From positions 1 through 26,382 of the IMG/VR virus record IMGVR_UViG_3300042328_000299: 26,382 nt of DNA. One strand, given 5' to 3'. Position numbers and translations under genes: made by a program. A model generated the notes under the pieces. The model was not told where the DNA came from, made no database searches, and saw nothing but the letters and a program-made list of their open reading frames with translations. This document shows positions 3,977 to 26,382 of the stretch, one piece after another. Source of the DNA: a virus. How positions within the stretch are numbered: position 1 is the first letter of the stretch; every line of letters starts with the position of its first letter.

Positions 3977-3985
3977 AGGAATACC

Positions 3986-7379: not shown

Positions 7380-7387
7380 GGATCACC

Positions 7388-7663: not shown

Positions 7664-7665
7664 CT

Positions 7666-7962: not shown

Positions 7963-7985
7963 AGACTGGAATTCATTACCAGCTT

Positions 7986-8023
7986 TAAATGGTTTCACCA
8001 GCTATTGTGTATGAAACCATTTT
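7986..8023 (+). terminator. 12-bp hairpin, probable terminator or transcript end of the replication operon
   Basis: Bases 7986-7997 pair perfectly with 8012-8023 (core AAATGGTTTCA / TGAAACCATTT) around a 14-base loop. It lies 23 bases after the stop of the last replication-block gene. The right arm ends in TTTA, then TAGTATAAT, so there is no long separate U-run and factor-independent termination would be weak. It could equally stabilise the 3' end of the message or regulate the overlapping promoter, whose -35 lies in the loop. Confidence 0.55.
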
Positions 8024-8033
8024 ATAGTATAAT
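8005..8033 (+). promoter_or_regulatory. Sigma70-like promoter for the HNH/RNR block
   Basis: TTGTGT at 8005-8010 and a perfect TATAAT at 8028-8033 are separated by 17 bases. Transcription would start near 8040, about 20 bases before the HNH ATG, which has AAAGGATAC as ribosome-binding site. This is the best-formed rightward host-type promoter in the window and marks the start of the nucleotide-metabolism block. The -35 element sits in the loop of the hairpin at 7986-8023. Confidence 0.55.
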
Positions 8034-8060
8034 ACAGTATCTTAATTTTAAAGGATACAT

Positions 8061-10329: not shown

Positions 10330-10493
10330 ATAAATACTATGCATTTACTGAAGATTGTAAGATATCTTATTTAGGTGAGTTTGAGTCTATGGGAGATGCT
10401 ATGGAGCATTATTCAGATATAGATTCATATGTATGGTTTATGTCTGCACATGACCTAAACCAATTATACTTTAGTATAGGAGAATACTTATGA
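10326..10493 (+). CDS. Small acidic hypothetical protein between nrdA and nrdB (55 residues)
   Basis: ATG 10326 overlaps the nrdA stop by four bases (ATGA), and its own TGA at 10491-10493 overlaps the nrdB start by four bases. Such double coupling makes a random frame unlikely. The product is acidic and aromatic-rich (MNKYYAFTEDCKISYLGEF at the start, SYVWFMSAHDLNQLYFSI later), with a single cysteine. It is therefore not a glutaredoxin or thioredoxin (no CxxC), the usual companions of class I RNR. It contains the nrdB ribosome-binding site (AGGAG). Function unknown; an RNR-associated role is only guilt by position. Confidence 0.65.
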   Translation: MNKYYAFTEDCKISYLGEFESMGDAMEHYSDIDSYVWFMSAHDLNQLYFSIGEYL

Positions 10494-11515
10494 GTACACT
10501 CATTCACATTAATGGTATTCCCACATTCAAGTCTTCTAAAGGCTTTCGCTATCCTAAATTTTGGAATTATTACAAAGAACATGATCGTGCTCACTGGACT
10601 GCTGATATCATATCACTAGCTAAAGACATTCAGGACTTTGATAGAGCTTCTCCTAAAGAGAAGGATGACATCACTCGTACCATGAGACTATTCACTCAGC
10701 AGGAAGTATCAGTTGAGAATGGCTATGCAGTCTTACTTCGTATCTTCAAACCTATTGAGGTACAGGCTATGCTATCGAACTTCATGGCTAGAGAGTTTAC
10801 TCACATTGAGAACTACTCTCTATTCACTGAGACCATAGGGCTTCCTAACAGTATCTATCAGGACTTCCTTGATATACCTGTTATGGCTTCTAAAGCTGAT
10901 TACCTTGAGAAAGCTAAGGTCAAGAAGTACGAAGAATACAAGGCTATGAACTTATCAGAGCTTGCTCTCGATAAAGTATTCCGTAGAGATGTAGCTCGTA
11001 TGCTTGCCATCTATGCTGGAGGTGCTGAAGGTATCTCTCTCATGGCACAGTTTGCAGCACTCCTTAAGTATCAGTTCTCTGGGAAATACCCTGGTCTTTG
11101 TACCATAGTAGAGTATAGTATTCGTGAAGAGAATATGCACTTCATTGGTAACTGCCACTTGTTCCGTACATTCATAGCTGAGAATCCTGATATTTGGGAT
11201 GATGAGTTGAAGTATGATATCTATCAGGGTATCCGTGAGATGGTAGCATATGAAGAAGCTCTGGTAGATTACTTTGATTATGCCCACATTGCTAATAGTG
11301 ACTTGAAGCGTTACATTCAGTATCGTGCTGATATTGCTTTAAAGGAACTTGGTATGAAACCTAACTATAATACTACTGTCAACCCATTACCATACATGGA
11401 TGATGTTGTTGGTACTGTCTTAACTGATTTCTTCAGTGGTCGTGTAACAACATACAGCAAAGCCGTAGATGGTGACTGGGAAGATATAGATTATAGTAAA
11501 TGGAGTAGTGTATGA
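10490..11515 (+). CDS. nrdB: Ribonucleoside-diphosphate reductase, class I, beta (small, radical) subunit
   Basis: This 341-residue ferritin-like subunit generates the radical for the alpha subunit. Metal ligands and radical site are visible in order: a first ligand that appears to be Glu72 (FTQQEVSVENGY, where Asp is usual), Glu102-x2-His105 with the radical Tyr109 (REFTHIENY), Glu180 (GGAEGIS), and Glu214-x2-His217 (REENMH). The C-terminus (WEDIDYSKWSSV) is the flexible tail that docks on alpha. Length and motif order fit a tyrosyl-radical class I enzyme, with the Glu-for-Asp change as the one oddity. It follows nrdA across a 55-codon ORF and overlaps the next small gene by four bases (ATGA). 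Confidence 0.94.
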   Translation: MSTLIHINGIPTFKSSKGFRYPKFWNYYKEHDRAHWTADIISLAKDIQDFDRASPKEKDDITRTMRLFTQQEVSVENGYAVLLRIFKPIEVQAMLSNFMAREFTHIENYSLFTETIGLPNSIYQDFLDIPVMASKADYLEKAKVKKYEEYKAMNLSELALDKVFRRDVARMLAIYAGGAEGISLMAQFAALLKYQFSGKYPGLCTIVEYSIREENMHFIGNCHLFRTFIAENPDIWDDELKYDIYQGIREMVAYEEALVDYFDYAHIANSDLKRYIQYRADIALKELGMKPNYNTTVNPLPYMDDVVGTVLTDFFSGRVTTYSKAVDGDWEDIDYSKWSSV

Positions 11516-11682
11516 CACCAAAAGAATACAGTAAGAAGTATGATGCTATTGCTACATCAGAAGCATCTGCTACAGTGAAAGCTGAAGCACTTGCTAAACT
11601 GAATGAACAATACAAAGGCATATACTTTAAAGCTATGCAGGTCATTATTGACTCTGCACCAGACTTACCTAAAGGAGATTAA
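11512..11682 (+). CDS. Small helical hypothetical protein (56 residues)
   Basis: ATG 11512 overlaps the nrdB stop (ATGA), and the frame ends at TAA 11680-11682. The product is Ala/Lys-rich and almost entirely helical (SEASATVKAEALAKLNEQY), ending SAPDLPKGD. There are no cysteines and no recognised motif. Its last codons contain the AAAGGAG that serves as ribosome-binding site of the DUF6378 gene, so the two are coupled. Function unknown. Confidence 0.62.
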   Translation: MTPKEYSKKYDAIATSEASATVKAEALAKLNEQYKGIYFKAMQVIIDSAPDLPKGD

Positions 11683-11684
11683 GT

Positions 11685-12023
11685 ATGTCATTAGCATTTT
11701 CAGATCACGGAGGAGGAGACGCAGTAATGTCACCATCATTAGAAAAACAGTATATAGGTGTAGAAGATATTCTACTAGAAAGAGGAAACCGTTATGGTAA
11801 GTTCTCAGGTCATGCAGCACTTACTCAGGCATTGAAAGATGCTTTCATTAAGCACTCTAACAACTTCAGCAGACTTACTCCTGCCATGAGAGAATCCTTA
11901 GATATGATCTTCCATAAGATTGGTCGTATTGGTAACGGAGATCCTTTCTATGATGACTCATGGATTGACATTGCAGGCTATGCCCAGCTTGTAGTAGATG
12001 AACTTCATGGAGAAGGCAAATGA
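11685..12023 (+). CDS. DUF6378 family phage protein
   Basis: This 112-residue protein matches the pattern I know for DUF6378: ERGNRYGKFSGHAALTQALK near the front, then ESLDMIFHKIGRIGNGDP, and a closing DDSWIDIAGYAQLV. The family is common in tailed phages and, because it resembles the all-alpha NTP pyrophosphohydrolase helices and often lies beside such enzymes, may act on nucleotides; its biochemical role is not established. Two starts are possible: ATG 11685 with AAAGGAG eight bases upstream, and ATG 11727 with a stronger GGAGGAGGA nine bases upstream, which would remove a Gly-rich 14-residue leader. The stop overlaps the MazG-like start by four bases (ATGA). Confidence 0.78.
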   Translation: MSLAFSDHGGGDAVMSPSLEKQYIGVEDILLERGNRYGKFSGHAALTQALKDAFIKHSNNFSRLTPAMRESLDMIFHKIGRIGNGDPFYDDSWIDIAGYAQLVVDELHGEGK

Positions 12024-12394
12024 AATGGGTTGATGGTCTCCGTCAGTGGAGAAAGAATCGTAACAGTGTAGCATTACAGGACTCATTCATACCTGCTATA
12101 CAAGAAGAACTTCAAGAGTACTCAGATGCTAAGACTGAGCACGATAAGATTGATGCCTTAGCTGACATATTAGTATTTACTGCTAATGAGATAGAACTCG
12201 AAGGATACAACGTAGATCTTGTTATGAAGCAGGTTGTCAAGCACATCTCTTCTCGTATGCAAGATCATGTTCAGGCTTCTGAGTGGCTGAAGAATGGACC
12301 TTCTGGCAAATGGCAGAAGTGGCAATCACAACCATCAGATTCCTTGTATGAACCAGACTATACTATCTGTCGATTGTCTAAAGCAGTCTCTTAG
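12020..12394 (+). CDS. MazG/PRA-PH-like NTP pyrophosphohydrolase
   Basis: This 124-residue protein has the four-helix all-alpha NTP-PPase pattern: metal-binding EELQEY (Glu29, Glu30, Glu33) followed by KIDALADILVFTANEIELEGYN, whose Asp45 and Asp49 form the second metal set. The tail SLYEPDYTICRL is typical of phage relatives of phosphoribosyl-ATP pyrophosphohydrolase. Such enzymes hydrolyse nucleoside triphosphates to monophosphates, clearing dUTP or aberrant nucleotides or lowering alarmone levels. Its position after RNR and DUF6378, with four-base coupling, fits control of the dNTP pool. It is the last rightward gene. Its stop codon lies in the loop of a hairpin, 10 bases from the end of the convergent RNA polymerase gene. 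Confidence 0.8.
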   Translation: MKWVDGLRQWRKNRNSVALQDSFIPAIQEELQEYSDAKTEHDKIDALADILVFTANEIELEGYNVDLVMKQVVKHISSRMQDHVQASEWLKNGPSGKWQKWQSQPSDSLYEPDYTICRLSKAVS

Positions 12395-12401
12395 GAGACT
12401 G
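12384..12401. terminator. Hairpin at the convergent gene junction, candidate bidirectional terminator
   Basis: CAGTCTC (12384-12390) and GAGACTG (12395-12401) form a perfect 7-bp stem with a TTAG loop that contains the stop codon of the MazG-like gene. The convergent RNA polymerase gene stops at 12405. The site is right for separating middle and late transcripts, but neither direction has a U-run (TCATTAG rightward, CTTTAGAC leftward), so factor-independent termination is doubtful. Confidence 0.45.
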
Positions 12402-12404
12402 TCA

Positions 12405-15400
12405 TTAGAACATCCCAGCTCCTAGTGCTATTGATTCTAACGATATAGTCTCAGTAGGGCTATGGATGATACCATAGTATCCTCCAGCTTTAGTCACGAT
12501 ATTCTGGTTCAGTACATTCAGATTCTCTACACCCATTGCAGTCTCTACAGCATAGCTTCCCAGTGTACTTACAGGATGATATCTTAGTAGTCCTGCTATC
12601 ACCTTCTGCACTCTCATCCAGTATGCTGGGAACATCAGTATTCCATAGTCACTTAGTACTTTGATCTCTTTAGGGAGATTTGCTCTGTAGTCTATGAATG
12701 TATCATTTGCTAGAGCATATGCTTCTTCACTCGTATACTTTCTTCTGTTTCCTCTTGTACCACTTCTAGGATTCTCTTTTCCTATCAGATGCTTAGCCAG
12801 TGTATACTTTGCCATTACATCTCCCAGTACCATATAAGCACTACCATATGCTGCAGCTTCTGATGCTGGACTTCCTAGGAACTCACTTACATATCTGCTC
12901 ACACTTTCCTTATCATTCTTCTTATTCTTCAGTCTCTCAGCTATCTCTACCAGTTCAGTTCCTACATCAGTACCTTTCATTTTAGCACTTGTACCTGCTG
13001 CTATCAGCCACTCATCCATTTGAGGACCAGTATTTGCAAACCACTTTATAGCATCAAACAGCTTATTAGGATTTCCTTTCTTATCATGTGTGTACTTGTT
13101 GATCACATCATCTATATCTTTCTGTATACCACTGATAGTATCGAACTCTTTTATTACTAGATCTGTACTGTATGACTGTACGAATCCTGCATTGTATGCT
13201 TCATGGAAATCCATCTCTTTCATGGCTGCTATATGCTTATCCAGGACATTCACTGCTTTTTTCTTAGCAGTCTCATTCTCTTTTGTCTTATTCATCTCAT
13301 ATGCAGCGTCTGCCATCCTAGCAGCCATTTGCAACTCTACCAGCTTACCTCTTGCTTTGGAGTATTCACCATATGCTGTGTACCCTGCTTTCATGCCATA
13401 GTAGATCTCTGTAGGTGTCATGTCCATCATAGACAGTACACCCACATTTGTTACAGTATCATTCAGTAGTTTCACTGGATTCATCACTACCATCTTCTGC
13501 TTTGCTAGTACTACCATCTTCTTGAACATATTCTCCCATCTTGCAGCATCTCTATTATCATTACCGAATATCTGTCCATTCTTATATCCTAGTAGTACTT
13601 CTGATACACCTCTCTTCACTAGAGATACTTTCTTATTGAAGTTATTAAATGTTGTCAGTCCTTCTGGAGTCTTGTAGTACTGGGCTATCATAGGATATTC
13701 TTTCTTTAGATCATCGAAGCTTTTGATATGCTTCAGTTCTGGAGATTCATAGTCTATATTGATGAATGGTTCTACTTCTGTTCTTTCACCTTTTAGACCT
13801 ACTCTATCGTTATCCTTCAGTATTCTCTCTAGTTCTTTCATTCCATTTTCATTCTTGATAGTTCTTGTCCCATTCTCCAGTAGAGTTCTTCTGATTGCTT
13901 CTGATGCTATCAGGTCTTTATTATGGAGATATGTTCTGTATAGGCTATGAGCAGCATTTTCTACCATATGTAACTTCTCTGTCTTCATCTCTTTACTCAG
14001 TAGCACTCTGAATCTTGATCCTTCTTGTACCATCCCATTGTGGAATAACCATGACTCTCTTGCTTCATCACTGTTGAATGTTCGTAGCTTATCCACTATA
14101 GGCTTACTTTGTTCTCTTGACAGCAGTGCACCATTGGAGTATCTATTCAGTTCTAGTCCTACACCAGTATTGTACCCTGACTCATAGTTCTCTCTTGCTA
14201 GGATTCCTACAGTATCTTTTGTAGCTTCTTTTACTACTATCCACCCATTCTCACTTGAATTATCACTTCTTCTCATCTCAGACAATGTTACCGCTTTGTA
14301 CTCGAAGACTTTATCATGAATATCCATGCTATAACTTCCGTCATACATACCATGATATCCTGCATCATCAGAGTAGTTCATTCCTCTATAGTCTACACCC
14401 TTCTCATTTAGCTCATCATTCATCTTCTTATTGATCAGTGCTAGAGACATCATCCAGCTTCTAGTATCATTATCCATATCCTGTAGTAGCTTCTGACTTC
14501 CAGGGATTGTACTCATTGCTTTTAGTGTTGTATATAGCAGTGCTTCCTTGCTGAAGATTCCTGTAGCATACACATTTGTATTATTGGTAGCAGTCTCGCC
14601 TGTAGTCCAGTAGTTTGCTACATCATCCAGTTTTGCTATATTCTCAGCAGGCATCTTAGAGCTTACCTCTACCATTGCTTCTTTTATGGTGGTCTTACCT
14701 TCTAGGATGTTATTGAGCATTTTCTCATTCAGTACTAGGTTTGCTATACCTGTATCAGCGAACATTCTATGGATTTTCTTCTGATCAGCTTTAGAATAAG
14801 TATCCTTTAGTAGTCTATCCAGCTTAGCCATATTCTCAAGTTCTTTCACTGATTCTTGCTGATACTGATTGGATAGTTTCAATGATTCTTTTATCACTTT
14901 ATCTTTTACATCTCCTGCCAGTCCTAGAAGGTAGTGCATACGTTGAGCGAAGTCACTGCTATAGAATCCATTACGTAGCATGCTCACAGCAGTCTTATAC
15001 AGTGCAGAGTTTCTCTTCATGTTGACATGTGCTTTCTTGAGAGGAGGACCCATATGCTCCACCATAGTATCTCCCCATATCACCATCCAGTCTGACATGA
15101 AGCTGTTACTCTTAGAGATAGTATCATTGATAGCATTGTATGGTGCCATTACGATATGATCGTTATGGTCTTTATCATTACCAGCTTTAGCAGGTTTAGT
15201 CTTAGTATTAGGCTTTGCTTTAAGAGATATAGCATTAGCTCTAGCATTATGATCCAGTGCTGCCAATGCTATCTGTATATTCATTACAGATACATCAGTA
15301 GCCAGTCCTTTCTGCAGTATGCTTTCTACACGCTTAGGATCTTTATTCAGTAGCATTGCTACATAGGCTTTAACCTTAGCTATTAATCTTTCTACCATAG

Positions 15401-18400
15401 TCATTAGATTGCTTGCTGATGCTATTCTCTGAATCTCTATAGCTACATCTGGTTCACTTGTTAGTATTGCTATAAGCTCTGCTAGTCTGTTCTCTGCAGG
15501 AGCTTCTTTTGTAGCGTAGTCTAGACGAGGAATAGTTCTATCACTGTTGGAGAACTCATTCAGTCTCATTAGATCTTCAGGAGGAAGATTTGATAGCTTA
15601 TCCAGAACCTTCTGCATGTACTTCACTTCTACACTATCTTTATTATTTTCGATATAGTCTAACTGATAAGCATGATCCACTTCATGCGCTAGAGTCTCTA
15701 TTAGACTTTCTATAGTATGAGTTACACCATGTCTTATATCTCTACCAGCAGTATTACTTGTATCTATTGTGACTTGCTTTGATAGTGCCATGTATTCATT
15801 TCCTACATTGAATGTCATTGTAGGATCACGTAGAGCATCTATCACTTTACCATATAGCTCTTTATGAGACTCAGGAATATTCAGCTTACTCAGTACACTT
15901 TCTATAGTACTTGCCAGTCCTTTTGGACTTGCTTCTGTAAGCATCTTGATAGCAGCTTTTATAGATACACTTATAGCTTCAGCAGTAGCGATAGTTTCTT
16001 TTACAGTATCAGGTTCTACTTCAGTGTCATTTCCCCATAGATCTACAGCATCCTTCTGCCCCAGTATGTTTGTTTTTACTGGAGAGAGGAATTCTACCTT
16101 ATTCTTCTTCAGTTCAGTGATCTTTTCTTTCAGTACTTCTATCTGTTTTGCTATGGCTTTAGAAGTATTATCTTTATACACTTCTTCCACTTCGTTAAGT
16201 GCAGCAGTAAGGTAGTCATAGTCCTTTGCCAGTTGTACCGTATACTTGTTGTATGCTTTCATGATACTCTTTGCTGTATTAGCATCTGAATATAGTGCAT
16301 CATGTACTGTCATGATTCCATCAGTATTACCCTTAGAAGCCATCACATCTCTGAGTGTCAGCAGCAGTAGCGCAGCATCTGTAGCATGTTGTAGGTTGAC
16401 GTTGAATGATGTCTTATTATTCAACATTTTATTCACTACTAGGAGTTCTTTGTCTATGTCTTTGAGAGTCATTGACTTGAGCTTCTGTATTGACATCTTC
16501 TCATTCGTTCCTAGTTCTGTACCCATTGCACTCTTGATAGTACCTTCCCACTTTCCGCTCTTGTCCAGGAGAGTATACATATCATTCATCATCTCTCTGT
16601 ATTTTACTACATCCTCAAATGTAGCTTTTAGAGTACGAACATAGTGATCACCTACAGTATCACCGAAGAACTTTGATAGAGTCTCTATATCCTTTTGAGA
16701 TACTTCTTTTATCATAGGTTGTAGCTTTCCTGTCACACTGCTGATCTTTGCTGTATCAGTTGTAGTGTATTCTGTATTCAGTATTTCATTCACCCACTTC
16801 AGTGCTGCTGTATTACCACTGATAGCTGACTTCACCATATCCACTGCTATAGAGTTACCCATGCTATGCTTTGTGTTATCACCCTTTTGTCCGTAGAACC
16901 AAGGCATCATTGCATACTTTACCAGTTCACGTAGGAACTTATTAGCACCACCTTCTTTACCATTTGACATTACAGTAGTCAGTCTATCCACTATAGGCTT
17001 AACCTCTTCATTGTATCTCATGGTGTCATTAGCCACTGCTACATCTGACAGTATGTTGTATGGATCTTGTACTTGTCCTTCTATAGCATACTTTCCGATA
17101 CCCAGTTTACCTAGTATCTTCTGGATAGATTCAAACCCTGAGATATTCAGTAGAGTATTTACCACACCACTTGCAGTAGCATCACTCTCCACCATATATG
17201 ATGTAGTCACTTTGTATCCATCTGCTTTACTGATGTCATGTACAGCTCTCAGTAGAGATAGCAGTTTGAATGGTGATCCTACATCGAACTTTCCTGATAG
17301 ATACACCAGATCTGCTAGAGCTACTGTTCCATTCTTCCCTTTTATGTTCTCTATTACATTACCCAGCTTACCAGTAGGATTCTTCACTTCATCTTCTGAT
17401 ATTCCCATCTCATCAGCTACATTTGCTACCAGTATGTTGAACGCATCTTTATTAGCTGTAGTATATTCACCACCTGTCACCATCTGTCTTGCCATGTACT
17501 TATCACCTTGGAACTCCAGTACAGTTTGTAGTACATGTATACGTTCATTGATAGCACTCTCATAGTGGTAATTGAATCCACCTTCTTCTGACATCATAGC
17601 TTCTATCTCATCCAGGCTTTCCAGTACAGCTGCTAGGTTTCCAGTACGATTTATCTTTCGTCCTACTTCACTCATCTTAGTCAATGCTGAGTTTCCATCT
17701 ACTAGCTGAAGTGCTTCTACCACATCTCTCTCTTCTGCTATCAGCTTATCAATATCTTGATCATGCTTATCATACAGCTTCTTAAGATCTTTCAGTATAC
17801 TCATTGCTTCAGGTTTGATCTTGTATTTCAGTTCACTGTATTGTTTGATGATGTCTTGGTGTTCTTTTGAGATCTTGACATCTTCAGCTCCTTTTGACAT
17901 TACCACAGCAGTCTGCCCTTCTGTAGCTGGTATTTCCACATTAGGAGGAGTAAACAGCTTACTGAATGTACTCACTGCATCTGCCAGTCTATTCTTATTC
18001 TTTCTACTGCCAGTACTCTCATTTGATGTTAGTGTCAGTACTTTCATCATAGCTGTACGCTTCTTCTTGTCAGCATATCTCATAGCAGGATTCATTGGAT
18101 CACTCTCTACGATATTGTGCACTGGAAGATTCTCTTCAGTCTCTGTCACCATACCCAGATCTTGCATCAGCTTTATGATATGTTCTCCACGTTCAGCATA
18201 TGCTTTAGCCACATCTTCTGCTGTACCTGTCAGCTTGAATCCAAATGCATTAGTATATGCTTGTCCTATCTGATTTACCAGCTGTAGCTTTCTTGCACCA
18301 CTTGTCTTATGCTCCATACCATACTTGTTACTGATATCATACTCTGCAGTCTGCCCACTTCTTATGTTGCTCATACCTATTGCTACAGCTCTCAGTACAT

Positions 18401-20906
18401 TTGCCACAGTAGCTGTCTCACCATCTGGTAGAATATTACTCATCGCTTCTTGTGCTACATCAAGTTTACCTTCTATCTCTTTTGCTAGGTTCTGTATCTG
18501 TGTATGTTCTTGCTTACCATACCCTAGCTTCTTTGCTATACGCTTCATGAATGTAGTATCTTTATTGTCTTTATCATATCCTTCTGCTACCACTTCATTG
18601 ATCTTCTCATCAGTAGTGCTCATAGGATCGAATAGCTTACCCTTCTTCTTTGAAGTCTCTGATACACCTGTCTCAGTTATAGCTGATACCTTCACCTTAG
18701 AAGTTCTGTCAGTGAGTGTAGTGATCTTATCCATACCAGCTTTATGCAGTCTCTCTTGTTGTACTTCATCCAGTTGGGCATCCTCTTCTACTTGTACTTT
18801 AGACTCTTGTACTATAGGTGTAGTTTCCTCAGCAGTAGTAGTAGACTCTACTTCTGTAGTTGTAGTAGGAGTCACTACAGTATCCATTTTAGCTCTTAGT
18901 TTCTCCACAGGAGCTAGAAGAGTATCCACACTTGCAGTGTAGTCTTCAGCTTTTGGGTCTAGCTCCATAACAGAGTCTAGTCTAGCATTGATACCTTCTG
19001 CTAGCTTAATGTCTCTTTCACTCATACCTTCAGTGATAGGTACTCGTCTTGAGTTGATATCAGCAGTAAATGCTTTTCTTTCAGCTTTAGTAGTATTGAT
19101 ACTTTCTACAGTCTTGCCTGTAGTAGTCTCTGCTAGGCTTGTTAGTCCTTTATTAGTGGCATCCATTACAGGAGACAGCACAGCTCCTATGGTTTCTTTA
19201 GGTGATGTTACTACATGCATTCCAGCACCACTCCCAAACCCTCCTCCGAATGCTTGGAACAGTTCTCTTCCTGTCTTACTAGAGAAGATTTCATTAGCTT
19301 TTTCATCCCCAAGCTTAGCTCCTACGATGTCTAAGAACTGCTGTGCTACTTCTTCAGTACCTTCATATAGTCCTTTACCAGTTGCTACTGTCAGTGCCCC
19401 TGCTAGTCTCTTGCCAGCATTCAATACCATCCCATCTGTTAGCTTATTAGACTTGATCAGCTTATCCATTACACCAGATACGATCTTTGTTCTACCGATC
19501 ATCTCATCTACACCAGCTTTATTCAGTATAGCTTGTCCCCATCCTGTTAGACCTGCTAGAGCTTTATCTCCTAGGGTAGTGTATGCTTTACCAGTTTCTT
19601 CTTGTCTTCTCTCTAGAGTCTTATTAGCATAGTCGAATGTATTAAGGATTACACCTGCAGCTCTCATAGGTCCAGTCAGGAATTCTCCAGCACTCTCTGC
19701 TATAAATTCAGGAGCAGCATCTAGATTACGTGCTATAGACTTAGCCATCTCCACAGGGCTTCCACTATCAAAGGCTTTACCGAAGTCTGCCATAGCAGCT
19801 TGAGTAGTAGCATCATCATATCCATACTCTGCAGCTTTCTTGTACTTGTCTAGTCCTATGAAGTCCCCATTTTTATTGTAGTAGTCTTTGGTGAAAGAGT
19901 TTCCACCCATAGTCTTAGCCATCTTCTTTTGTACTTGCTCTTGAGTCATCTCAGGATTCATCATACCATATCCAGCTACTGCTACTTGTCCTCCAGCATC
20001 CACAATAGCATCTGCTATTCCAGCAGCTTTTCTACCAACACCGTACTGTAGTGCATCTATTAGGTTAGAATCAGTTATCTGTAACCCATTTTGATACTTA
20101 TGCAGTTTATCCATTTCTTTAGGTAGAGGAGTATTTGGAGCTAGTCTTGGATTAGTATTAGCAGATTGATTCCACATAGGAGCATTCTGTGTTGTATACT
20201 CAGTCTTACCACTTCCGAAGTTTGCTATATCTTGTTTTGATACAGGACCTTGACCTATAGCTCTATTAGCCAGTTGTCCTCTGTTAGAGTGCACACCATG
20301 CTCGAATTGAGTAGCTACATTATATGGTAGTTGGATATCCATTAAGGCACCATCTTGAGGTGTTACACCTTTAGGTCCTGGAGTCCATCCATACTTCTTA
20401 CCTTTACTGTCCTCTGTAGGAGTGTACCGTCCTAGGAATCCTTTATCACTACGAGCTAACCCTAACTTCATATTCCCTTCTAGCGTATTATCTATATAGA
20501 GATTTCTTGTATCTTCATTACCATATGCATTTTCTTTTGTGTAAGGTACCTTAGTGATAGTAGTGTTTCCATTACTATCTTTACCATACATCTCTTGGTA
20601 CTTGTTACCATTAGCATCTGTGTACACTTGCTGGTCTACAATGTCTGATAGAGCTTGTTGTAGCTGAGCACCAGAGCTTGTAGATGTAAGAGCATGTAGT
20701 CTATTTATCTTTTCATTTCTAGCCTCTAAGAGCTTCTCTGCTTTAGTAGGTTCACCATATGGAGCAAGACCAGTGTATCTTCTATCAGCTAGTGTAGGCT
20801 CATTATAAGGTATGTTTGGATTGTTAATATAGGAGGAAGATCCTATCTTAGATCTTTCAGCTTGAATATCCTTAGCAGCTTGATTACGCAGTTCAGTAAG
20901 GTTCAT
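12405..20906 (-). CDS. Virion RNA polymerase, N4 gp50-like, with HExxH domain
   Basis: This 2833-residue protein is injected with the DNA in N4 and transcribes early genes. T7-family polymerase motifs occur in order: INERIHV (Arg1122, TxxGR position) then FQGDK (Gly1134); motif A ESDATASG with Asp1242; motif B Arg1326-x3-Lys1330-x7-Tyr1338-Gly1339; motif C VHDALY with Asp1536. The enzyme core is thus roughly residues 740-1650. Before it lies a helical N-terminal region with hydrophobic stretches and a Thr/Glu-rich linker at about 670-715. After it comes HEVDH (1741-1745), a metallopeptidase-like HExxH with possible third ligand Glu1805 or Glu1810, then about 1000 residues ending in segments like other N4-type C-termini (DYGILMFPAYWMRVQKVI). 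N4's version is about 3500 residues, so this one is shorter. ATG 20906 has AAAAGGAC and its own TATAAT upstream. Confidence 0.92.
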   Translation of the reverse strand: MNLTELRNQAAKDIQAERSKIGSSSYINNPNIPYNEPTLADRRYTGLAPYGEPTKAEKLLEARNEKINRLHALTSTSSGAQLQQALSDIVDQQVYTDANGNKYQEMYGKDSNGNTTITKVPYTKENAYGNEDTRNLYIDNTLEGNMKLGLARSDKGFLGRYTPTEDSKGKKYGWTPGPKGVTPQDGALMDIQLPYNVATQFEHGVHSNRGQLANRAIGQGPVSKQDIANFGSGKTEYTTQNAPMWNQSANTNPRLAPNTPLPKEMDKLHKYQNGLQITDSNLIDALQYGVGRKAAGIADAIVDAGGQVAVAGYGMMNPEMTQEQVQKKMAKTMGGNSFTKDYYNKNGDFIGLDKYKKAAEYGYDDATTQAAMADFGKAFDSGSPVEMAKSIARNLDAAPEFIAESAGEFLTGPMRAAGVILNTFDYANKTLERRQEETGKAYTTLGDKALAGLTGWGQAILNKAGVDEMIGRTKIVSGVMDKLIKSNKLTDGMVLNAGKRLAGALTVATGKGLYEGTEEVAQQFLDIVGAKLGDEKANEIFSSKTGRELFQAFGGGFGSGAGMHVVTSPKETIGAVLSPVMDATNKGLTSLAETTTGKTVESINTTKAERKAFTADINSRRVPITEGMSERDIKLAEGINARLDSVMELDPKAEDYTASVDTLLAPVEKLRAKMDTVVTPTTTTEVESTTTAEETTPIVQESKVQVEEDAQLDEVQQERLHKAGMDKITTLTDRTSKVKVSAITETGVSETSKKKGKLFDPMSTTDEKINEVVAEGYDKDNKDTTFMKRIAKKLGYGKQEHTQIQNLAKEIEGKLDVAQEAMSNILPDGETATVANVLRAVAIGMSNIRSGQTAEYDISNKYGMEHKTSGARKLQLVNQIGQAYTNAFGFKLTGTAEDVAKAYAERGEHIIKLMQDLGMVTETEENLPVHNIVESDPMNPAMRYADKKKRTAMMKVLTLTSNESTGSRKNKNRLADAVSTFSKLFTPPNVEIPATEGQTAVVMSKGAEDVKISKEHQDIIKQYSELKYKIKPEAMSILKDLKKLYDKHDQDIDKLIAEERDVVEALQLVDGNSALTKMSEVGRKINRTGNLAAVLESLDEIEAMMSEEGGFNYHYESAINERIHVLQTVLEFQGDKYMARQMVTGGEYTTANKDAFNILVANVADEMGISEDEVKNPTGKLGNVIENIKGKNGTVALADLVYLSGKFDVGSPFKLLSLLRAVHDISKADGYKVTTSYMVESDATASGVVNTLLNISGFESIQKILGKLGIGKYAIEGQVQDPYNILSDVAVANDTMRYNEEVKPIVDRLTTVMSNGKEGGANKFLRELVKYAMMPWFYGQKGDNTKHSMGNSIAVDMVKSAISGNTAALKWVNEILNTEYTTTDTAKISSVTGKLQPMIKEVSQKDIETLSKFFGDTVGDHYVRTLKATFEDVVKYREMMNDMYTLLDKSGKWEGTIKSAMGTELGTNEKMSIQKLKSMTLKDIDKELLVVNKMLNNKTSFNVNLQHATDAALLLLTLRDVMASKGNTDGIMTVHDALYSDANTAKSIMKAYNKYTVQLAKDYDYLTAALNEVEEVYKDNTSKAIAKQIEVLKEKITELKKNKVEFLSPVKTNILGQKDAVDLWGNDTEVEPDTVKETIATAEAISVSIKAAIKMLTEASPKGLASTIESVLSKLNIPESHKELYGKVIDALRDPTMTFNVGNEYMALSKQVTIDTSNTAGRDIRHGVTHTIESLIETLAHEVDHAYQLDYIENNKDSVEVKYMQKVLDKLSNLPPEDLMRLNEFSNSDRTIPRLDYATKEAPAENRLAELIAILTSEPDVAIEIQRIASASNLMTMVERLIAKVKAYVAMLLNKDPKRVESILQKGLATDVSVMNIQIALAALDHNARANAISLKAKPNTKTKPAKAGNDKDHNDHIVMAPYNAINDTISKSNSFMSDWMVIWGDTMVEHMGPPLKKAHVNMKRNSALYKTAVSMLRNGFYSSDFAQRMHYLLGLAGDVKDKVIKESLKLSNQYQQESVKELENMAKLDRLLKDTYSKADQKKIHRMFADTGIANLVLNEKMLNNILEGKTTIKEAMVEVSSKMPAENIAKLDDVANYWTTGETATNNTNVYATGIFSKEALLYTTLKAMSTIPGSQKLLQDMDNDTRSWMMSLALINKKMNDELNEKGVDYRGMNYSDDAGYHGMYDGSYSMDIHDKVFEYKAVTLSEMRRSDNSSENGWIVVKEATKDTVGILARENYESGYNTGVGLELNRYSNGALLSREQSKPIVDKLRTFNSDEARESWLFHNGMVQEGSRFRVLLSKEMKTEKLHMVENAAHSLYRTYLHNKDLIASEAIRRTLLENGTRTIKNENGMKELERILKDNDRVGLKGERTEVEPFINIDYESPELKHIKSFDDLKKEYPMIAQYYKTPEGLTTFNNFNKKVSLVKRGVSEVLLGYKNGQIFGNDNRDAARWENMFKKMVVLAKQKMVVMNPVKLLNDTVTNVGVLSMMDMTPTEIYYGMKAGYTAYGEYSKARGKLVELQMAARMADAAYEMNKTKENETAKKKAVNVLDKHIAAMKEMDFHEAYNAGFVQSYSTDLVIKEFDTISGIQKDIDDVINKYTHDKKGNPNKLFDAIKWFANTGPQMDEWLIAAGTSAKMKGTDVGTELVEIAERLKNKKNDKESVSRYVSEFLGSPASEAAAYGSAYMVLGDVMAKYTLAKHLIGKENPRSGTRGNRRKYTSEEAYALANDTFIDYRANLPKEIKVLSDYGILMFPAYWMRVQKVIAGLLRYHPVSTLGSYAVETAMGVENLNVLNQNIVTKAGGYYGIIHSPTETISLESIALGAGMF

Positions 20907-20932
20907 GTATAAGTCCTTTTATGTGGTAAGGA

Positions 20933-20938
20933 ATTATA
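20933..20938 (-). promoter_or_regulatory. Late promoter -10 ahead of the virion RNA polymerase gene
   Basis: A perfect TATAAT reads leftward (ATTATA on the top strand) 27 bases from the polymerase ATG, in the 43-base gap after the preceding gene. No TTGACA-like element lies 16-18 bases upstream. The predicted leader is about 20 bases and contains AAAAGGAC. The same layout recurs at 22818 and 25969. Established N4 biology: late promoters use host sigma70 RNA polymerase activated by the phage SSB. Confidence 0.5.
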
Positions 20939-20949
20939 CACTATTTATA

Positions 20950-21906
20950 TTATCTTCCACCCCATGTTCCAAAAGGACTCCAGCCTCTTTCTGAAAATGT
21001 AGGCATTCCAGCAGCTTTCCACTGCTGGTAATCATAAGCATCGACTGTAGATGGTACTTGTGAGAGATACTTAGTGAATCTTTCTTGTTCTAGATCCTTG
21101 TTCTTTATTAACTTTTCATTAGCAGCAGTCTTTCTTTCTGCTATTTTTACAGGGTTGGTAGCATCTAGTTCCTGTTGTAATAGACCTAGTCTCATAGCTT
21201 TTGTGTAGTAGTCGTCTTTAGGTGTAAGCTTAGCCTGTAGTTTTACTTTTGCTATATCATTAGCATTTCTCATATTTTCTAGTGCTATTTGCTGTTTATA
21301 CTTCAGTTCATCTGATGCTAGTTGTGCAGCTGCTAGCTTATCAGCAGCAATACGAGTATCATACCCACCTAGCATTTTATTCTTTAGTTCTTGTGCTACT
21401 GATACATCACCTTGTACTTCTTTAGTTATAGGATTACCATCAGCATCCATACCTACAACCACTTCCTGAGGACCTTGATCTATGTTGACACCACTGATAT
21501 ATTGTCTCTGTAGTGTAGGACTTGCTTCATACTGAGCTTTAGCAGCATTCTGCATAGCTACTACATCAGCTTTTGGATTCTTGTTATATGCTGCTAGGAT
21601 TACATCTGCTTGCTCTGGTGTGATTAGCCCTTGAGTAGCATTCTGTAGATCCTTATTAGCTAGTATGTTACCTTGAGTAGTTGCTTTATCAATACCGAAC
21701 TTCTCAGCTTGCATATCAGCTGCTGCTTTCTGGAGTGAGAATGACTTATCCCAGTTAGCTTGTTGTCTTGCTTCTGCTGCTAACTTATCTGCTCTATCTC
21801 TATCCTTATCTGCTCTAGCTAAGAATTGGGTAGCAATACTACCAACTGCTTCTAATGGATTACCGTATTGCCCTATCAGGCTTGCAACACTTGAATTGTT
21901 TCTCAT
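20950..21906 (-). CDS. Putative internal virion protein, Ala/Gln-rich helical (N4 gp51 position)
   Basis: This 318-residue protein is dominated by long polar helices, for example residues 30-60 (DKDRDRADKLAAEARQQANW) and about 185-225 (DKLAAAQLASDELKYKQQIA), with a short beta-like middle (VVVGMDADGNPITKEV) and an aromatic, Gly-rich C-terminal tip (FSERGWSPFGTWGGR). No enzymatic motif is seen. Helical, Ala/Gln-rich proteins encoded beside the packaged polymerase are typical of podovirus internal or ejection proteins, and N4 gp51 and gp52 are virion components. ATG 21906 has a strong GGAGGAG site, and the upstream gene stops only 10 bases away, so the two are co-expressed. The aromatic tip could be a partner-docking peptide. 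Assignment by position only. Confidence 0.68.
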   Translation of the reverse strand: MRNNSSVASLIGQYGNPLEAVGSIATQFLARADKDRDRADKLAAEARQQANWDKSFSLQKAAADMQAEKFGIDKATTQGNILANKDLQNATQGLITPEQADVILAAYNKNPKADVVAMQNAAKAQYEASPTLQRQYISGVNIDQGPQEVVVGMDADGNPITKEVQGDVSVAQELKNKMLGGYDTRIAADKLAAAQLASDELKYKQQIALENMRNANDIAKVKLQAKLTPKDDYYTKAMRLGLLQQELDATNPVKIAERKTAANEKLIKNKDLEQERFTKYLSQVPSTVDAYDYQQWKAAGMPTFSERGWSPFGTWGGR

Positions 21907-21916
21907 GACTCCTCCA

Positions 21917-22765
21917 TTATGCTGATAGTCCAGAAGCTTTTAGATCACTTCTGAACTTATCTTCTTGAGCATTCTTTCTGTTGATCTCATTCTTGATCAT
22001 CTTATTACGATCTTTAGTAGTATCATACATACCGTATGCTGCTAGTCCTTGCATTATAGTGCCAATACCTTGTGCACCCCCTAACCCATCATAGATACTC
22101 TTTCCAGTTTCTAGTAGTCCTTCCCCTAGCCCAGCACCTGCTTCATATAGGTTACTACCAAATCCTTTTGTACTGTCCCACATACCAGCTAGTCCATTAC
22201 TCATACGATCATACCCACTGGGGACACTCACATATGGATTCTGCACTGCATCTAGTTGAGCAGCATCTAATGTTACTGACTGCTGTGCTCCTGTGATAGG
22301 GTCTACATAACCATAGTTATTACCCACTAGTCCTTGAGACCATGCTGGTTTTACTGCTGGTTCACCATCTGCTTTTGTAGTAGATTGTTGGAGTAATTGC
22401 CCTGTTGGAGTCTGTGGTGCGCTGACTCTTTTAGAGTCTGCACCTCTTGGTACATTATTGTTAAATAGTGCACTACCACTATCAGCATCAATACCTCCTG
22501 CAAGTCCTATTCCATAGCTTATTGGAGCAGAGTCAGATGTAGTTACAGGAGCAGTAGTTGCTTTAGGCTTTACTGCGGGAGCACTATATGCTTTTGTAGT
22601 AGTTGTCCCTTTAGGCTTAGCTTTTACTGCTTTATATCCACCAGGAGCTCTTTCATTTAACATTTCTTGGTAGGGGTCATACACAGATGCTTTTACAGTA
22701 GGTACTGTCTTCTTTACAACAGGTTGAAGCCCTCTTCCTGCAACCCATATTTGTTGTTCTGCCAT
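21917..22765 (-). CDS. Putative virion protein with disordered N-terminal half (N4 gp52 position)
   Basis: This 282-residue protein has residues about 15-150 rich in Pro, Thr, Ala, Ser and Lys, with repeated KPKATT/KPKGTT-like segments, so they are probably disordered. Residues 195-245 are Gly-rich and mildly hydrophobic (AGAGLGEGLLETGKSIYDGL, then IGTIMQGLAAYGMY), and the C-terminus is a charged helix (RNKMIKNEINRKNAQEDKFR). This composition suits an internal head or ejection component that must unfold to pass the tail, or a flexible tail-associated protein. It is the first gene after the TATAAT at 22818 and has AAAGGAT before ATG 22765. No enzymatic motif; the family is not recognised beyond its position between the virion RNA polymerase and the membrane-block protein. 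Confidence 0.68.
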   Translation of the reverse strand: MAEQQIWVAGRGLQPVVKKTVPTVKASVYDPYQEMLNERAPGGYKAVKAKPKGTTTTKAYSAPAVKPKATTAPVTTSDSAPISYGIGLAGGIDADSGSALFNNNVPRGADSKRVSAPQTPTGQLLQQSTTKADGEPAVKPAWSQGLVGNNYGYVDPITGAQQSVTLDAAQLDAVQNPYVSVPSGYDRMSNGLAGMWDSTKGFGSNLYEAGAGLGEGLLETGKSIYDGLGGAQGIGTIMQGLAAYGMYDTTKDRNKMIKNEINRKNAQEDKFRSDLKASGLSA

Positions 22766-22832: not shown

Positions 22833-25115
22833 TCATGCATATTGCTTTTGTAGTACACCTTGTGTTGCATGCATACCATACTGTAGATTCATCTTCTCAT
22901 TAAGTGCTTCTATAGCATCGAATGCAACAGTTCTTGTTTCTAGTAGGAATACACTCTCTACACCATCTTCAGGTACTGCTTGTTCTTCTGCTGTAGGTGA
23001 TGTAGGAGTCTTTGTACCTACAGCATCTACCATCATGTACCCTCTATACCCAGACTCTGCTAGCTTTATAAAGTTAGTCACATTCTGTACTGGACCTACT
23101 GATGGTGCTGACATACCTGCTGTGAAGTTACCCCATGAATTATATGCTCCCATTATAGCAGTAGCTGCATTTATGATCTGTCTTTCTTTCTCACCACCCA
23201 TGCCTAGAGCGTTTACACCAAACGATGCTACCCCTAGTACTAGCGTTACAGCAGACATAGCAGTACTTATCATTATACTCTGAGTTATAGCTGCTACAGC
23301 TTGAGGACCACCAACAGCTGCTATCTGTGAAGCTGATAGCCCAGCCATAGAATTGAGAGCACCTATTCCATTCATTACATCAACATAGCCACTCACTATT
23401 GATACTACTGCTAGGGCTATACCATTTATATGTATAGCTCCTCCTATAACTTTCATACCCCATTCATCCCCAACATGTTTAGCATATATCATCATTGCAA
23501 TCTGTAAGAATAGCATGCTAGCTGCTAATGCTAGGAGTACTGATGATAGTTTCCACCCAGCACCTTTTGTTAATATAAATATAGCTACTGCTACTATTAC
23601 TATTATGACAGCTAATGCTTTTTGCCACCACTTAGCCTTCTTCTTTTTGAAGCCTGTATCAAAACACTTAGTAAATACAGTATGAAACTCATTAGCAGTC
23701 ATTGCATTGAATGCATCAACTCTCAGATATCCTCTATGAAATATAGCATTATCTTCATAGTAGAACTCAGTATGTAGATTCTTTATAGCATCCTTTATTG
23801 TAGTATCCATTACAGCTGAATTGATAGAAGCTGGTTCAATGAATAGACCAGGAAACTGTATAGTACCTCCAGTTGGGAACTTACTTGCTACAATAGCTTG
23901 TCTTGTTATTAGAGTACTTGTCTCAGTAGCTACTGCTTTTACCTTGAATCTCTTTGTATAGGTATATGACATGTTGAACAGCTGTGTGTATGCTGTACCT
24001 CTGGACCCTACTGCAGATGATCTTTGTACCTCCATAGGAGTTAGTTCTATTACTTCCCCTATAACTGGTTCTAGCACATCGTATAGCTCGCCATCATCTA
24101 ACACTGCTAGTGTGTCTAGTTCATGTCCCCAGTCTTCATTGTATGCTATATCAGCTACCTTCATGGATAGTCTTTTACTTCCTACATTTATGGTGTTGTT
24201 ATATGTAGGTACCCCCCATGCATTAGTAGGATATACTCCAGCAAGATACTGCATAGCATTACTTTCTATAGAAGCTCTCAGTGCTGCTAGGTCATTGAAC
24301 ATCTCTGGTGTTCCTCCAGCTACTGGGTTAGCAGTACTGATTGTATTGGTATATTGACCACCTACTGTGATCTGTACATCAATATAATCTCTTTTTATCT
24401 TTAGTACTATAGAGACATCACTAGTAGTATTATTCAGGTGAGTTCTTCTTACAGTATACCCAAACTGATTACTACCACCATCATGGTTCATCTTGTTTGT
24501 AGGAGGATTGATAGTATCACTGTATACATCATATGGATCTGATAGAATAGGTTCTACTCCAGCAGCAGTTATTCTGATTTTACCATCAGCAGTTATTCTG
24601 TAGAAGCCATCAGCAGTAGTATCGAATGTTCCTGTACCATTTACGAATTGGTAGTTCTTTATATCAGAATCTATTGGTAGAGTAGCTATTACTTCATTAG
24701 CTATTCTGCCCTGACTATAGTAGTATGTAGTAGCTGTATTTGTGTATGGTACTGACATATCATACAGATAGTCGTTATTGAGTTTATCTGCTATATCAGC
24801 ATTACTCTGAGGAGAGAATAGTAGCTTACTCTGATTCATCTTGAAGTATATGTTTTCTACTTTATCTATATTTTCAGTCTCTAGTATCTGCTTATTCATC
24901 TCCTTATATGATGTACCTATATTACGCAGGAATCTCTTGAATGTTTTATCAGATCTTACTTTAGAGCTATTTTGGTATATTTGAGCAGTACCATATACTT
25001 GTACTCCACCTACCATGCTCTTAGTGAATACTTTATCGAATAGAGACTTACGCATTACCTTATTGTTATGCATAGCTATTCTAGGTTTATTGTAATCCCT
25101 ATGGATGAAGCTCAT
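22833..25115 (-). CDS. Large structural protein with C-terminal membrane-spanning block, putative ejection protein
   Basis: This 760-residue protein has a soluble, beta-rich front two-thirds (residues about 120-480, many Thr/Asn/Gly strands). A strongly basic KKKKAKWWQK at 490-499 then leads into hydrophobic segments at about 500-516, 523-544, 556-577 and a Gly/Ala-rich stretch at about 605-632. The last 130 residues are polar. Short podoviruses deliver internal proteins that form a channel through the envelope, and a virion gene with 3-4 predicted membrane helices next to the packaged RNA polymerase fits that role; this is inference. It follows the 272-residue gene with an 8-base gap and a weak ribosome-binding site, implying translation by reinitiation. 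A promoter for the next genes lies right behind its stop. Family not recognised. Confidence 0.7.
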   Translation of the reverse strand: MSFIHRDYNKPRIAMHNNKVMRKSLFDKVFTKSMVGGVQVYGTAQIYQNSSKVRSDKTFKRFLRNIGTSYKEMNKQILETENIDKVENIYFKMNQSKLLFSPQSNADIADKLNNDYLYDMSVPYTNTATTYYYSQGRIANEVIATLPIDSDIKNYQFVNGTGTFDTTADGFYRITADGKIRITAAGVEPILSDPYDVYSDTINPPTNKMNHDGGSNQFGYTVRRTHLNNTTSDVSIVLKIKRDYIDVQITVGGQYTNTISTANPVAGGTPEMFNDLAALRASIESNAMQYLAGVYPTNAWGVPTYNNTINVGSKRLSMKVADIAYNEDWGHELDTLAVLDDGELYDVLEPVIGEVIELTPMEVQRSSAVGSRGTAYTQLFNMSYTYTKRFKVKAVATETSTLITRQAIVASKFPTGGTIQFPGLFIEPASINSAVMDTTIKDAIKNLHTEFYYEDNAIFHRGYLRVDAFNAMTANEFHTVFTKCFDTGFKKKKAKWWQKALAVIIVIVAVAIFILTKGAGWKLSSVLLALAASMLFLQIAMMIYAKHVGDEWGMKVIGGAIHINGIALAVVSIVSGYVDVMNGIGALNSMAGLSASQIAAVGGPQAVAAITQSIMISTAMSAVTLVLGVASFGVNALGMGGEKERQIINAATAIMGAYNSWGNFTAGMSAPSVGPVQNVTNFIKLAESGYRGYMMVDAVGTKTPTSPTAEEQAVPEDGVESVFLLETRTVAFDAIEALNEKMNLQYGMHATQGVLQKQYA

Positions 25116-25123
25116 ACTTCAGC

Positions 25124-25942
25124 CTATACAGCTGGAGTATTAGAATTCAGGTAGTCAATAGCAGCATTGAACTTGTTAATTATAGTAGCTTGATCAGGTA
25201 CGATGTCAGTAGCTAGTAGTTGCCCTATAGTCTGACTTAGTGCATTAACAGCATGACTTCTCTTACTGTCTTCAAATGATAGTATCTGTCTTCTAGCATA
25301 CTTATCTTGTGCATCTGTGTACCCTGTAGAAGTTCCTGATAGCCCTTTAATTGTACCATCCCCATCAGTTCCTATCTGTACTACTCCTGACTTTCTGTAT
25401 GCATCAGATAATGCAGCATATGCTTGAGCCTGGTATACTGCTTTCTGATCCCACTTAGTACCTTCATTCATCAGTGTCAACGGAGTACATCCATCAGCAG
25501 CATATGTTTCAATTCTACCATTGTCTCTGATACTTGTTGCCATTGTTGCTGCAGACTGTTTACACGTAGCATCTATCTCTTTGATAATCTTATCTATTTG
25601 ATATCCTACCATCATTCTATTAGCCATTGTAAGAGCTGTATCAGCTTCTATCTTAGCTAGACTATATGCTAGCTCTTTCTCTTGCTGTGCCCACTGCATT
25701 GCACCTTGTAGAACCTGCTGTGTAGTAGTAGTTGCTAACTGACTTATGAATTGACTAGCTAGTTCAGCATACTGAGGTCCTGTAAGCTTACTACCATCTA
25801 GCAGTTCCTTGAATGTATCCTTTGCTCTCATATAGATACTATCAATACCTAGAGCTGTTTCTGTTAAGGTATTAAACTTTGATACTACATCTAGTGTACC
25901 ATCTTCTTGTGTTGCTACTGGGAGTGTTTGTGTGTATGGCAT
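25124..25942 (-). CDS. Putative internal virion protein (N4 gp54 position)
   Basis: This 272-residue protein is mostly helical and rich in Ala, Gln, Thr and Asp, with one short beta/Gly region around residues 195-215 (VQIGTDGDGTIKGLSGTST). Examples of helices are LTGPQYAELASQFISQLATT and AYSLAKIEADTALTMANRM. Two cysteines occur in the middle third, including CKQSAATMA. No enzyme motif is seen. N4 gp54 is a virion protein of similar size (about 30 kDa as I recall) encoded at the equivalent place, so an internal head or core protein is likely. ATG 25942 has AAAAGGAC and a TATAAT 27 bases upstream, the same arrangement as for the RNA polymerase gene, and it heads a coupled pair with the membrane-block protein. 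Confidence 0.68.
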   Translation of the reverse strand: MPYTQTLPVATQEDGTLDVVSKFNTLTETALGIDSIYMRAKDTFKELLDGSKLTGPQYAELASQFISQLATTTTQQVLQGAMQWAQQEKELAYSLAKIEADTALTMANRMMVGYQIDKIIKEIDATCKQSAATMATSIRDNGRIETYAADGCTPLTLMNEGTKWDQKAVYQAQAYAALSDAYRKSGVVQIGTDGDGTIKGLSGTSTGYTDAQDKYARRQILSFEDSKRSHAVNALSQTIGQLLATDIVPDQATIINKFNAAIDYLNSNTPAV

Positions 25943-25968
25943 ATCTCGTCCTTTTATCTGTTATTGAA

Positions 25969-25974
25969 ATTATA
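25969..25974 (-). promoter_or_regulatory. Late promoter -10 ahead of the gp54-position gene
   Basis: A perfect TATAAT reads leftward in the 48-base gap between the partial gene at the right edge and the 272-residue gene. It is 27 bases from the ATG, exactly as at the RNA polymerase gene. No TTGACA-like element lies 16-18 bases upstream (that DNA is the end of the preceding gene). Confidence 0.5.
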
Positions 25975-25990
25975 GCGTAGATCTTAGATG

Positions 25991-26382
25991 TTAGTTGTCC
26001 TGATTGAACACTTCAAAAAAGGCTGTAGCGCTCCACCACTCGTTAGCTACAGTATCAGTGACAAGACGATATTCCTTTGTATTAGCAAAAGCTGTAGTAT
26101 CATATAAACCAAAAGGTGTAGATTCAATGGAGTAGCTCAACCCATTGCTTACAGATACTCCACCTGATGCAATCGTTACCCATGCACCACCATCTATACT
26201 TAGCTGTAATTTTCCATATGCAGCAAGACCAGTAATCTTTACGCCATAGTCAGATCTTAGATTACGAGTCGCTAGAAATCCACTTCCAAATGATTTACTA
26301 TGGATTGTGATTGTACCTCCTGATAACCCGAGTTGGCTTTTGAGGGTAAGGGATATAAGAAGTTTAGCGGTGTTGTTTGGGT
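25991..26382 (-). CDS. C-terminal 129 codons of a beta-rich structural protein
   Basis: A leftward frame enters from the right edge and ends at TAA (25991-25993), giving 129 residues with no start in the window. It is almost all short strands and turns, rich in Gly, Ser and Thr: for example LGLSGGTITIHSKSFGSG, KLQLSIDGGAWVTIASGG and STPFGLYDTTAFANT, with a Trp-containing end (NEWWSATAFFEVFNQDN). This looks like a beta-sandwich domain of a capsid decoration or tail-associated protein. In N4 the neighbouring genes are gp55 and the capsid protein gp56, but I cannot match it to either. The fold call is from composition only. Confidence 0.65.
   Translation of the reverse strand, partial: PNNTAKLLISLTLKSQLGLSGGTITIHSKSFGSGFLATRNLRSDYGVKITGLAAYGKLQLSIDGGAWVTIASGGVSVSNGLSYSIESTPFGLYDTTAFANTKEYRLVTDTVANEWWSATAFFEVFNQDN

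Follow-up and report, generated by a model that had tools for sequence, protein, structure and literature searches.

Introduction

The closest described systems are the tail plugs of phage N4 (gp53) and Pseudomonas phage DEV (gp74). N4 gp53 is reported to be a tail plug at a 12:6:1 symmetry mismatch (PMC12633501), and in the two phages together the mismatch is given as 12:6:1 or 12:1, with one plug per tail (PMC12633501, PMC12892993). Residues 29-56 and 670-716 of N4 gp53 make up a hydrophobic knot that corks the base of the tube, the last 160 residues lie in the lumen and were not resolved, and the plug is present in full as well as empty particles (PMC12633501). In DEV, gp74 is described as the plug orthologue, and its gene directly follows that of the tube; the fibre gp56 holds gp74 in place, and loss of gp56 leads to virions that lose their DNA (PMC12892993). 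Ejection across the envelope has been linked to N4 gp51 and gp52 and to DEV gp72 and gp73 (PMC12633501, PMC10925440), and N4 gp51 and gp52 are reported to form channels in lipid bilayers (PMC12633501). The table given for schitovirus B2 lists no gp53 homologue (PMC11654681).

Here we analyze a locus from a 26,382-base virus record, IMGVR_UViG_3300042328_000299, which we call the window. The protein of interest, P0001, had been proposed in an initial annotation to be a structural protein that could form a channel in the host inner membrane.

Results

Gene Cassette Surrounding P0001

The minus strand of the window carries, in the order of transcription, a partial ORF and then genes for proteins of 272, 760 (P0001), 282, 318, and 2833 amino acids, the last being a virion RNA polymerase (vRNAP). 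The genes downstream of the partial ORF are as follows.

25124..25942, minus strand: P0004, tail-tube-like protein of 272 amino acids in the slot of N4 gp54
22833..25115, minus strand: P0001, tail-plug-like protein of 760 amino acids
21917..22765, minus strand: P0003, 282 amino acids, located where N4 has gp52 (outer-membrane channel), assigned by position only
20950..21906, minus strand: P0002, 318 amino acids, located where N4 has gp51 (periplasmic tunnel)
12405..20906, minus strand: P0006, vRNAP of 2833 amino acids (phrog_2206, E 2e-24)

The N4 gene order is gp54 (tail tube), gp53 (plug), gp52, gp51, and gp50 (vRNAP), and the window has the same order. P0001 has this cassette in common with the ejection channel proteins N4 gp51/gp52 and DEV gp72/gp73. 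P0004 aligned with the gp54 family by hhalign (prob 81.4, E 1.2e-5, 215 columns; reversed control 0.3), and 8 bases separate its end from the start of P0001. Profile comparison gave no match of P0003 to gp52 (prob 2.2) and no direct match of P0002 to gp51 (prob 0.2), so the roles of these two proteins rest on position and, for P0002, also on 38% identity (E 3.7e-38) to a 393-residue protein in the gp51 slot of contig L060. The order in L060 is tube (phrog_2050), plug (phrog_2220), gp52 (phrog_2646), the P0002 relative, and vRNAP, with two ORFs between tube and plug; its vRNAP is 80% identical to that of the window over residues 362-2833. Judged by these matches, L060 ties the cassette of the window to N4. 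The plugs of L060 and L061 matched window-type plugs at prob 81 only.

Downstream of the gp53-slot gene, Vibrio phage pVa5 encodes proteins of 229 and 285 amino acids and Pseudoalteromonas phage pYD6-A proteins of 262 and 288 amino acids, sizes close to the 282 and 318 amino acids of the window; a vRNAP, or a long ORF in its place, comes next. P0001 had been described as lying beside the packaged polymerase. Its gene is indeed near that of the vRNAP, yet the genes for P0003 and P0002 intervene.

The plus strand carries N4-type replication genes, namely a primase (phrog_2135, E 1e-91), an SSB (phrog_743, E 2.4e-14), and Sak4 (phrog_2872, E 8e-9), and also encodes both ribonucleotide reductase subunits.

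Two further observations concern the minus strand. The partial ORF (25982-26382, 129 amino acids) had no PHROG match and, unlike the adjoining tube gene, no nucleotide match in the compared pieces of contig G001 (see below). The vRNAP contains HEVDH (HExxH) at window position 15686 (residue 1741), which we take to be a zinc-protease-like motif; it sits after the T7-like polymerase motifs, as read by eye.

P0001 and Its Hydrophobic Stretches

The ORF at 22833-25115 is real. It lies on the minus strand, which the initial annotation had not stated, starts with ATG, and encodes 760 amino acids; the plus-strand reading of the same interval is riddled with stops. The gene is under constraint because dN (0.15-0.18) is far below dS (0.75-0.90) over codons 114-455 in comparison with the relative L002. 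The features of P0001 used below are as follows.

24828..24947, minus strand: soluble block, residues 57-96, aligned to N4 gp53 residues 383-423
23619..23648, minus strand: basic-aromatic belt KKKKAKWWQK, residues 490-499; the N4 gp53 counterpart is KKVKKKWYQ at 656-664
23478..23636, minus strand: hydrophobic stretch 494-546 (two adjacent peaks), aligned to the N4 hydrophobic knot at 670-716
23364..23453, minus strand: hydrophobic stretch 555-584
23196..23291, minus strand: hydrophobic stretch 609-640

Hydrophobic stretches were defined with a 19-residue Kyte-Doolittle window and a cut-off of at least 1.6. They agree with the three to four helices previously placed at about 500-577 and 605-632, and the belt was likewise found where it had been reported. 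When the P0001 sequence was shuffled 2000 times, its top hydropathy peak (2.73) was reached in 8 cases. How many segments there are carries less weight: three or more segments appeared in 603 of 2000 shuffles, P0001 itself giving 10 overlapping pieces.

The AlphaFold2 models of whole P0001 and of residues 1-125 had mean pLDDT values of 41.8 and 59.2, respectively. The soluble part had been called beta-rich, and AlphaFold2 does draw strands there, but at the low mean pLDDT of the whole model. Foldseek found no PDB or BFVD match to the whole-protein model at E ≤ 0.001, and VIA-align gave no informative match with either model; both models are too poor to judge likeness to the fold of 9yft chain FA (N4 gp53). 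PDB entries 9yft and 9ze4 were not among the matches listed by the fold searches, which tells nothing either way. We disregarded three-helix matches of the NuoK/MrpC type (model residues 496-584, Z up to 9.2), because this part of the model is of low quality and because in VIA-align a Z below about 13 for helical bundles may reflect common arrangement alone. A PDB sequence search returned potassium-channel tetramerisation domains (E from 0.014, residues ∼96-157), judged to be chance matches in a poorly conserved stretch. The same search gave 9ze4_M, an "N4 gp53-like protein," collinearly (493-582 against 522-612) at an E of 2.3, too weak to count; 9ze4_M was not listed in the profile search of alignment A2 against the PDB. 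Assignment as a holin or lysis protein was set aside on size and position, and assignment by sequence as a channel or ejection protein was dropped for want of similarity to gp51 or gp52. Among the papers listed by literature searches, no title or abstract opening described P0001 or the block exchange reported below, which is no claim of absence from print.

Relatives of P0001

A tblastn search of 50,697 phage records with P0001 gave no match at E ≤ 0.01 and five unrelated records at E ≤ 10. In IMG/VR, relatives were found directly (L001, 91% identical; L002, ∼70%; L006; L007) and via the adjoining tail-tube gene (L023-L027, L030, and L048). The L048 protein has 554 amino acids, the counterpart of P0001 region 114-455 being much shorter there. 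Several relatives (L007 and L024-L027) have a weak belt, and the strict belt pattern was not found in the L060 and L061 plugs.

P0001 matched phrog_25216 (636 positions, function unknown) at E 5e-8, as did all five members of A2 tested against this family. The length of phrog_25216 is that of Alteromonas phage AD45-P1 gp003, a hypothetical protein of 636 amino acids that resembles P0001 in profile over 165 columns, at ∼18% identity. Its gene lies upstream of gp002, gp001, and a vRNAP gene, and the replication module of AD45-P1, with ribonucleotide reductase, resembles that of the window. AD45-P1 differs by one additional gene, gp004, which separates gp003 from the gp54-like gp005.

In all seven IMG/VR relatives examined for gene order (L006, L007, L024-L027, and L030), tail tube and plug are followed by the portal gene (phrog_1216, E 1.4e-103 or better), with no vRNAP cassette next; L007 has a 126-residue ORF between tube and plug. 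In G005, the contig of L030, vRNAP matches lie ∼13 kb or more beyond plug and portal. The steadier neighbor of the plug is the tail tube rather than the polymerase. As a separate observation, two distinct ORFs of G002, the contig of L023, match phrog_2206 (loci L031 and L034; ORF lengths 2824 and 1477 amino acids), which suggests that the vRNAP of G002 is split.

P0001 as a Probable Divergent Relative of N4 gp53

P0001 had no direct HMM match to phrog_2220, the family of N4 gp53, at E ≤ 0.1, and none was listed for five members of A2. BLASTP of P0001 against N4 gp53 aligned only the belt (E 0.6). Because of the missing HMM match, we name P0001 a divergent gp53 relative by its profile similarity and not a member of phrog_2220.

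Profile-profile comparison of 11 window-type plugs with 12 gp53 proteins gave prob 96.1 and E 3.6e-9 (reversed controls 6.4 and 8.5). Addition of L048 and AD45-P1 raised this to prob 97.2 and E 3.4e-11 in local alignment and to prob 99.2 and E 2.1e-18 in global alignment, with reversed global controls at E 0.15 and 0.10. Since the strongest block is short (57 columns) and hydrophobic, the other parts of P0001 were compared with gp53 separately. Residues 57-96 matched N4 383-423 (prob 54.6, E 1.2e-4; reversed 0.2), a score reached by none of 40 column shuffles (best prob 0.4), and the C-terminal part matched at prob 41 (reversed at most 0.5). The soluble, belt, and C-terminal blocks are collinear between the two families, and P0001 residues ∼500-550 align to the N4 knot.

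AD45-P1 gp003 bridges the two families, matching the window family at prob 99.0 and E 2.3e-18 and gp53 at prob 91 and E 1e-6. The tail tubes behave otherwise: the P0004 family matches gp54 but not the AD45-P1 tube (prob 0.3), and gp54 matches the AD45-P1 tube at prob 99.0.

P0001 thus resembles N4 gp53 (885 amino acids; PDB 9yft chain FA) in cassette slot, in a belt followed by helices of transmembrane (TM) strength, and in three collinear profile blocks. It differs in lacking the N-terminal ∼250-350 residues, which include the 29-56 half of the knot, and in having a region of its own at 114-455. Specifically, the alignment begins at about N4 residue 250-340, and the N-terminal parts of the P0001 family taken alone gave no match to gp53 (prob 0.3). 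P0001 is likened to DEV gp74 from the published description of that protein.

Membrane-type Helices in the Cassette Proteins

At least one TM-strength segment was found in every plug of the main comparison (24/24): 11 of 11 window-type plugs (a single weak one in L006), the AD45-P1 homologue, and 12 of 12 gp53 proteins. Two further plugs also have such segments, and their four channel-slot neighbors have none. TM-strength segments were absent from gp51 (0/5), gp52 (0/10), the window-type equivalents (0/2 and 0/3), the short gp51-slot proteins (0/2), and the tubes (0/10 and 0/11). Among the cassette proteins scanned, strong membrane-type helices occur only in the plugs, of which hydrophobic segments are a lasting feature. 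P0001 is unlike N4 gp51 and gp52 in this respect and also in profile, its family giving prob 0.0 against gp51 (five sequences) and prob 1.1 against gp52 (10 sequences).

Block Replacement in the Window

The window is nearly identical to G001, the contig of L001, over positions 1-12412 (97.3-99.98%, with a 27-base gap), 19129-21525 (at least 99.5%), and 23616-25981 (96.9%). Three blocks are replaced relative to G001.

23136..23615, minus strand: P0001 residues ∼501-660 (hydrophobic domain), recognized by nucleotide differences and dS
21526..22545, minus strand: P0003 residues 74-282 and P0002 residues 1-127, with no or weak blastn match between near-identical flanks
12413..19128, minus strand: vRNAP residues 593-2833, most of it with 91-93% DNA identity to L058-L060

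The boundary in the plug gene is sharp: nucleotide differences from the G001 plug number 2/60 over codons 481-500, 29/60 over codons 501-520, and 0/180 over codons 701-760. Between P0001 and L001, dS is 0.80-1.86 inside the block and 0-0.19 outside, so the block is a replacement and not the result of fast point change. In the vRNAP, residues 1-592 have 99.5% DNA identity to G001. The vRNAP looks like a hybrid, since most of its polymerase part is 91-93% identical to the N4-like lineage L058-L060.

Pattern searches of IMG/VR did not find the hydrophobic allele of the window or its P0003 allele; the polymerase allele was found in six IMG/VR loci. Exchange of the plug hydrophobic domain was seen in none of eight cultured schitovirus pairs, among them PW8-Moo19, whose divergence throughout makes it uninformative. 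Among these pairs, gp51 residues 151-650 were exchanged in the three with ECBP1.

At face value, in one metagenomic contig pair, the hydrophobic domain of the plug follows the ejection proteins and not the plug's own soluble part. Contact between plug and ejection proteins in the tail lumen would account for such joint exchange without a membrane step. The three-block pattern could possibly come from chimeric assembly of the metagenomic contigs.

Mosaicism was also observed elsewhere. Window positions 7729-11116, the ribonucleotide reductase region, are 99.94% identical to L059, whereas identity to L059 falls to 91-93% across the vRNAP and the sequence upstream of the vRNAP is different. In ECBP1 (L053), positions 17125-19071 hold a whole different allele of gp51 (residues ∼151-650), with an identity of 0.44-0.64 to three other Gamaleyaviruses that agree mutually at 0.92 or above across this region.

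Discussion

Judged from its profile similarity and gene position, P0001 most likely plugs the tail of an N4-like phage that is divergent and uncultured. Several points stand against this reading: P0001 gave no direct match to phrog_2220 and aligned with N4 gp53 by BLASTP only at the belt; the best-matching block is short and hydrophobic; the N-terminal half of the knot has no counterpart; the belt is weak, or missed by the strict pattern, in some relatives; the window-type tube does not match that of AD45-P1; window-type plugs match those of L060 and L061 at prob 81 only; the models are too poor to judge the fold; and a gp53 homologue is reported to be missing from schitovirus B2 (PMC11654681). 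As the initial annotation held, P0001 very probably belongs, on the strength of homology, to the virion proteins that make up the ejection apparatus. Its hydrophobic helices are more likely to be part of a cork than of a polymerase channel.

We propose a plug mechanism for P0001 because residues ∼500-550 align to the N4 knot and because of the plug function of its relatives, from which we infer its copy number, corking, and release by analogy. The soluble part would lie outside, beneath the receptor-binding parts. In the mouth of the tube, the belt and hydrophobic helices would fold as a cork, and the rest of the chain would run up the lumen toward the stored ejection proteins. Receptor binding would displace the plug, and the gp52-like and gp51-like proteins would then exit, followed by the vRNAP.

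It is conceivable, if doubtful, that the plug has two roles, the helices corking the tube in the virion and on release entering a host membrane, where they would dock or seed a channel of the gp52-like and gp51-like proteins. This would fit the restriction of TM-strength segments to plugs among the cassette proteins scanned, and the block exchange that two near-identical contigs show in the hydrophobic domain, at the gp52-like/gp51-like junction, and in part of the polymerase. However, the N4 plug is reported to be present in full and empty particles (PMC12633501), joint exchange needs no membrane if plug and gp52 touch in the tail lumen, the cultured pairs (one of them uninformative) showed no exchange of the plug domain, and the pattern comes from a single contig pair in which chimeric assembly is possible.

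Less probable still is a lineage-specific tail-tip protein non-homologous to gp53, the profile match reflecting convergence on a basic-aromatic and hydrophobic segment. The shortness and hydrophobicity of the 57-column block and the missing phrog_2220 match would suit such convergence. Against it, reversed alignments keep composition and hydrophobic runs yet give nothing, a soluble block is collinear, the cassette slot is identical to that of gp53, and AD45-P1 gp003 matches both families.

The model of the initial annotation, an oligomeric inner-membrane channel through which the polymerase is threaded, is very improbable: it would accommodate the three to four hydrophobic stretches of P0001 and a gene within the ejection cassette, but homology and slot indicate a single-copy plug, one copy with three to four helices would be too few to line a wide pore, profile similarity to gp51 and gp52 is absent, the portal gene and not the vRNAP cassette follows the plug gene in 7/7 relatives examined, and the nearest characterized relatives, N4 gp53 and DEV gp74, are tail plugs, the pores being gp51 and gp52. 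Burial of the helices in a core, which that annotation had named as the observation that would speak against a channel, is by analogy close to how the N4 relative is described in the virion.

The reading of P0001 as a tail plug bears on N4-type phages at several points. It sharpens a question raised by the N4 structure: why strong membrane-type helices are confined in the cassette to the plug when the pores are made by other proteins, and where the unresolved luminal part of the plug goes at ejection. A tentative and rather unlikely reading is that N4-type plugs hold a membrane module in store in their hydrophobic knot, which would seal the tail while touching the luminal ejection proteins and on release insert into a host membrane beside them; if so, the helices of the plug, the region of gp52/gp51 contact, and the polymerase would form one functional set and be exchanged together. 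The domain of interest is delimited by a natural allele boundary at residue 500, just past the belt. The divergence of P0001 from N4 gp53 suggests that the N-terminal part, which supplies half of the knot in N4, is dispensable to a gp53-like plug. Finally, the analysis provides a likely role, that of tail plug, for a hypothetical protein of uncultured N4-like phages and for AD45-P1 gp003.
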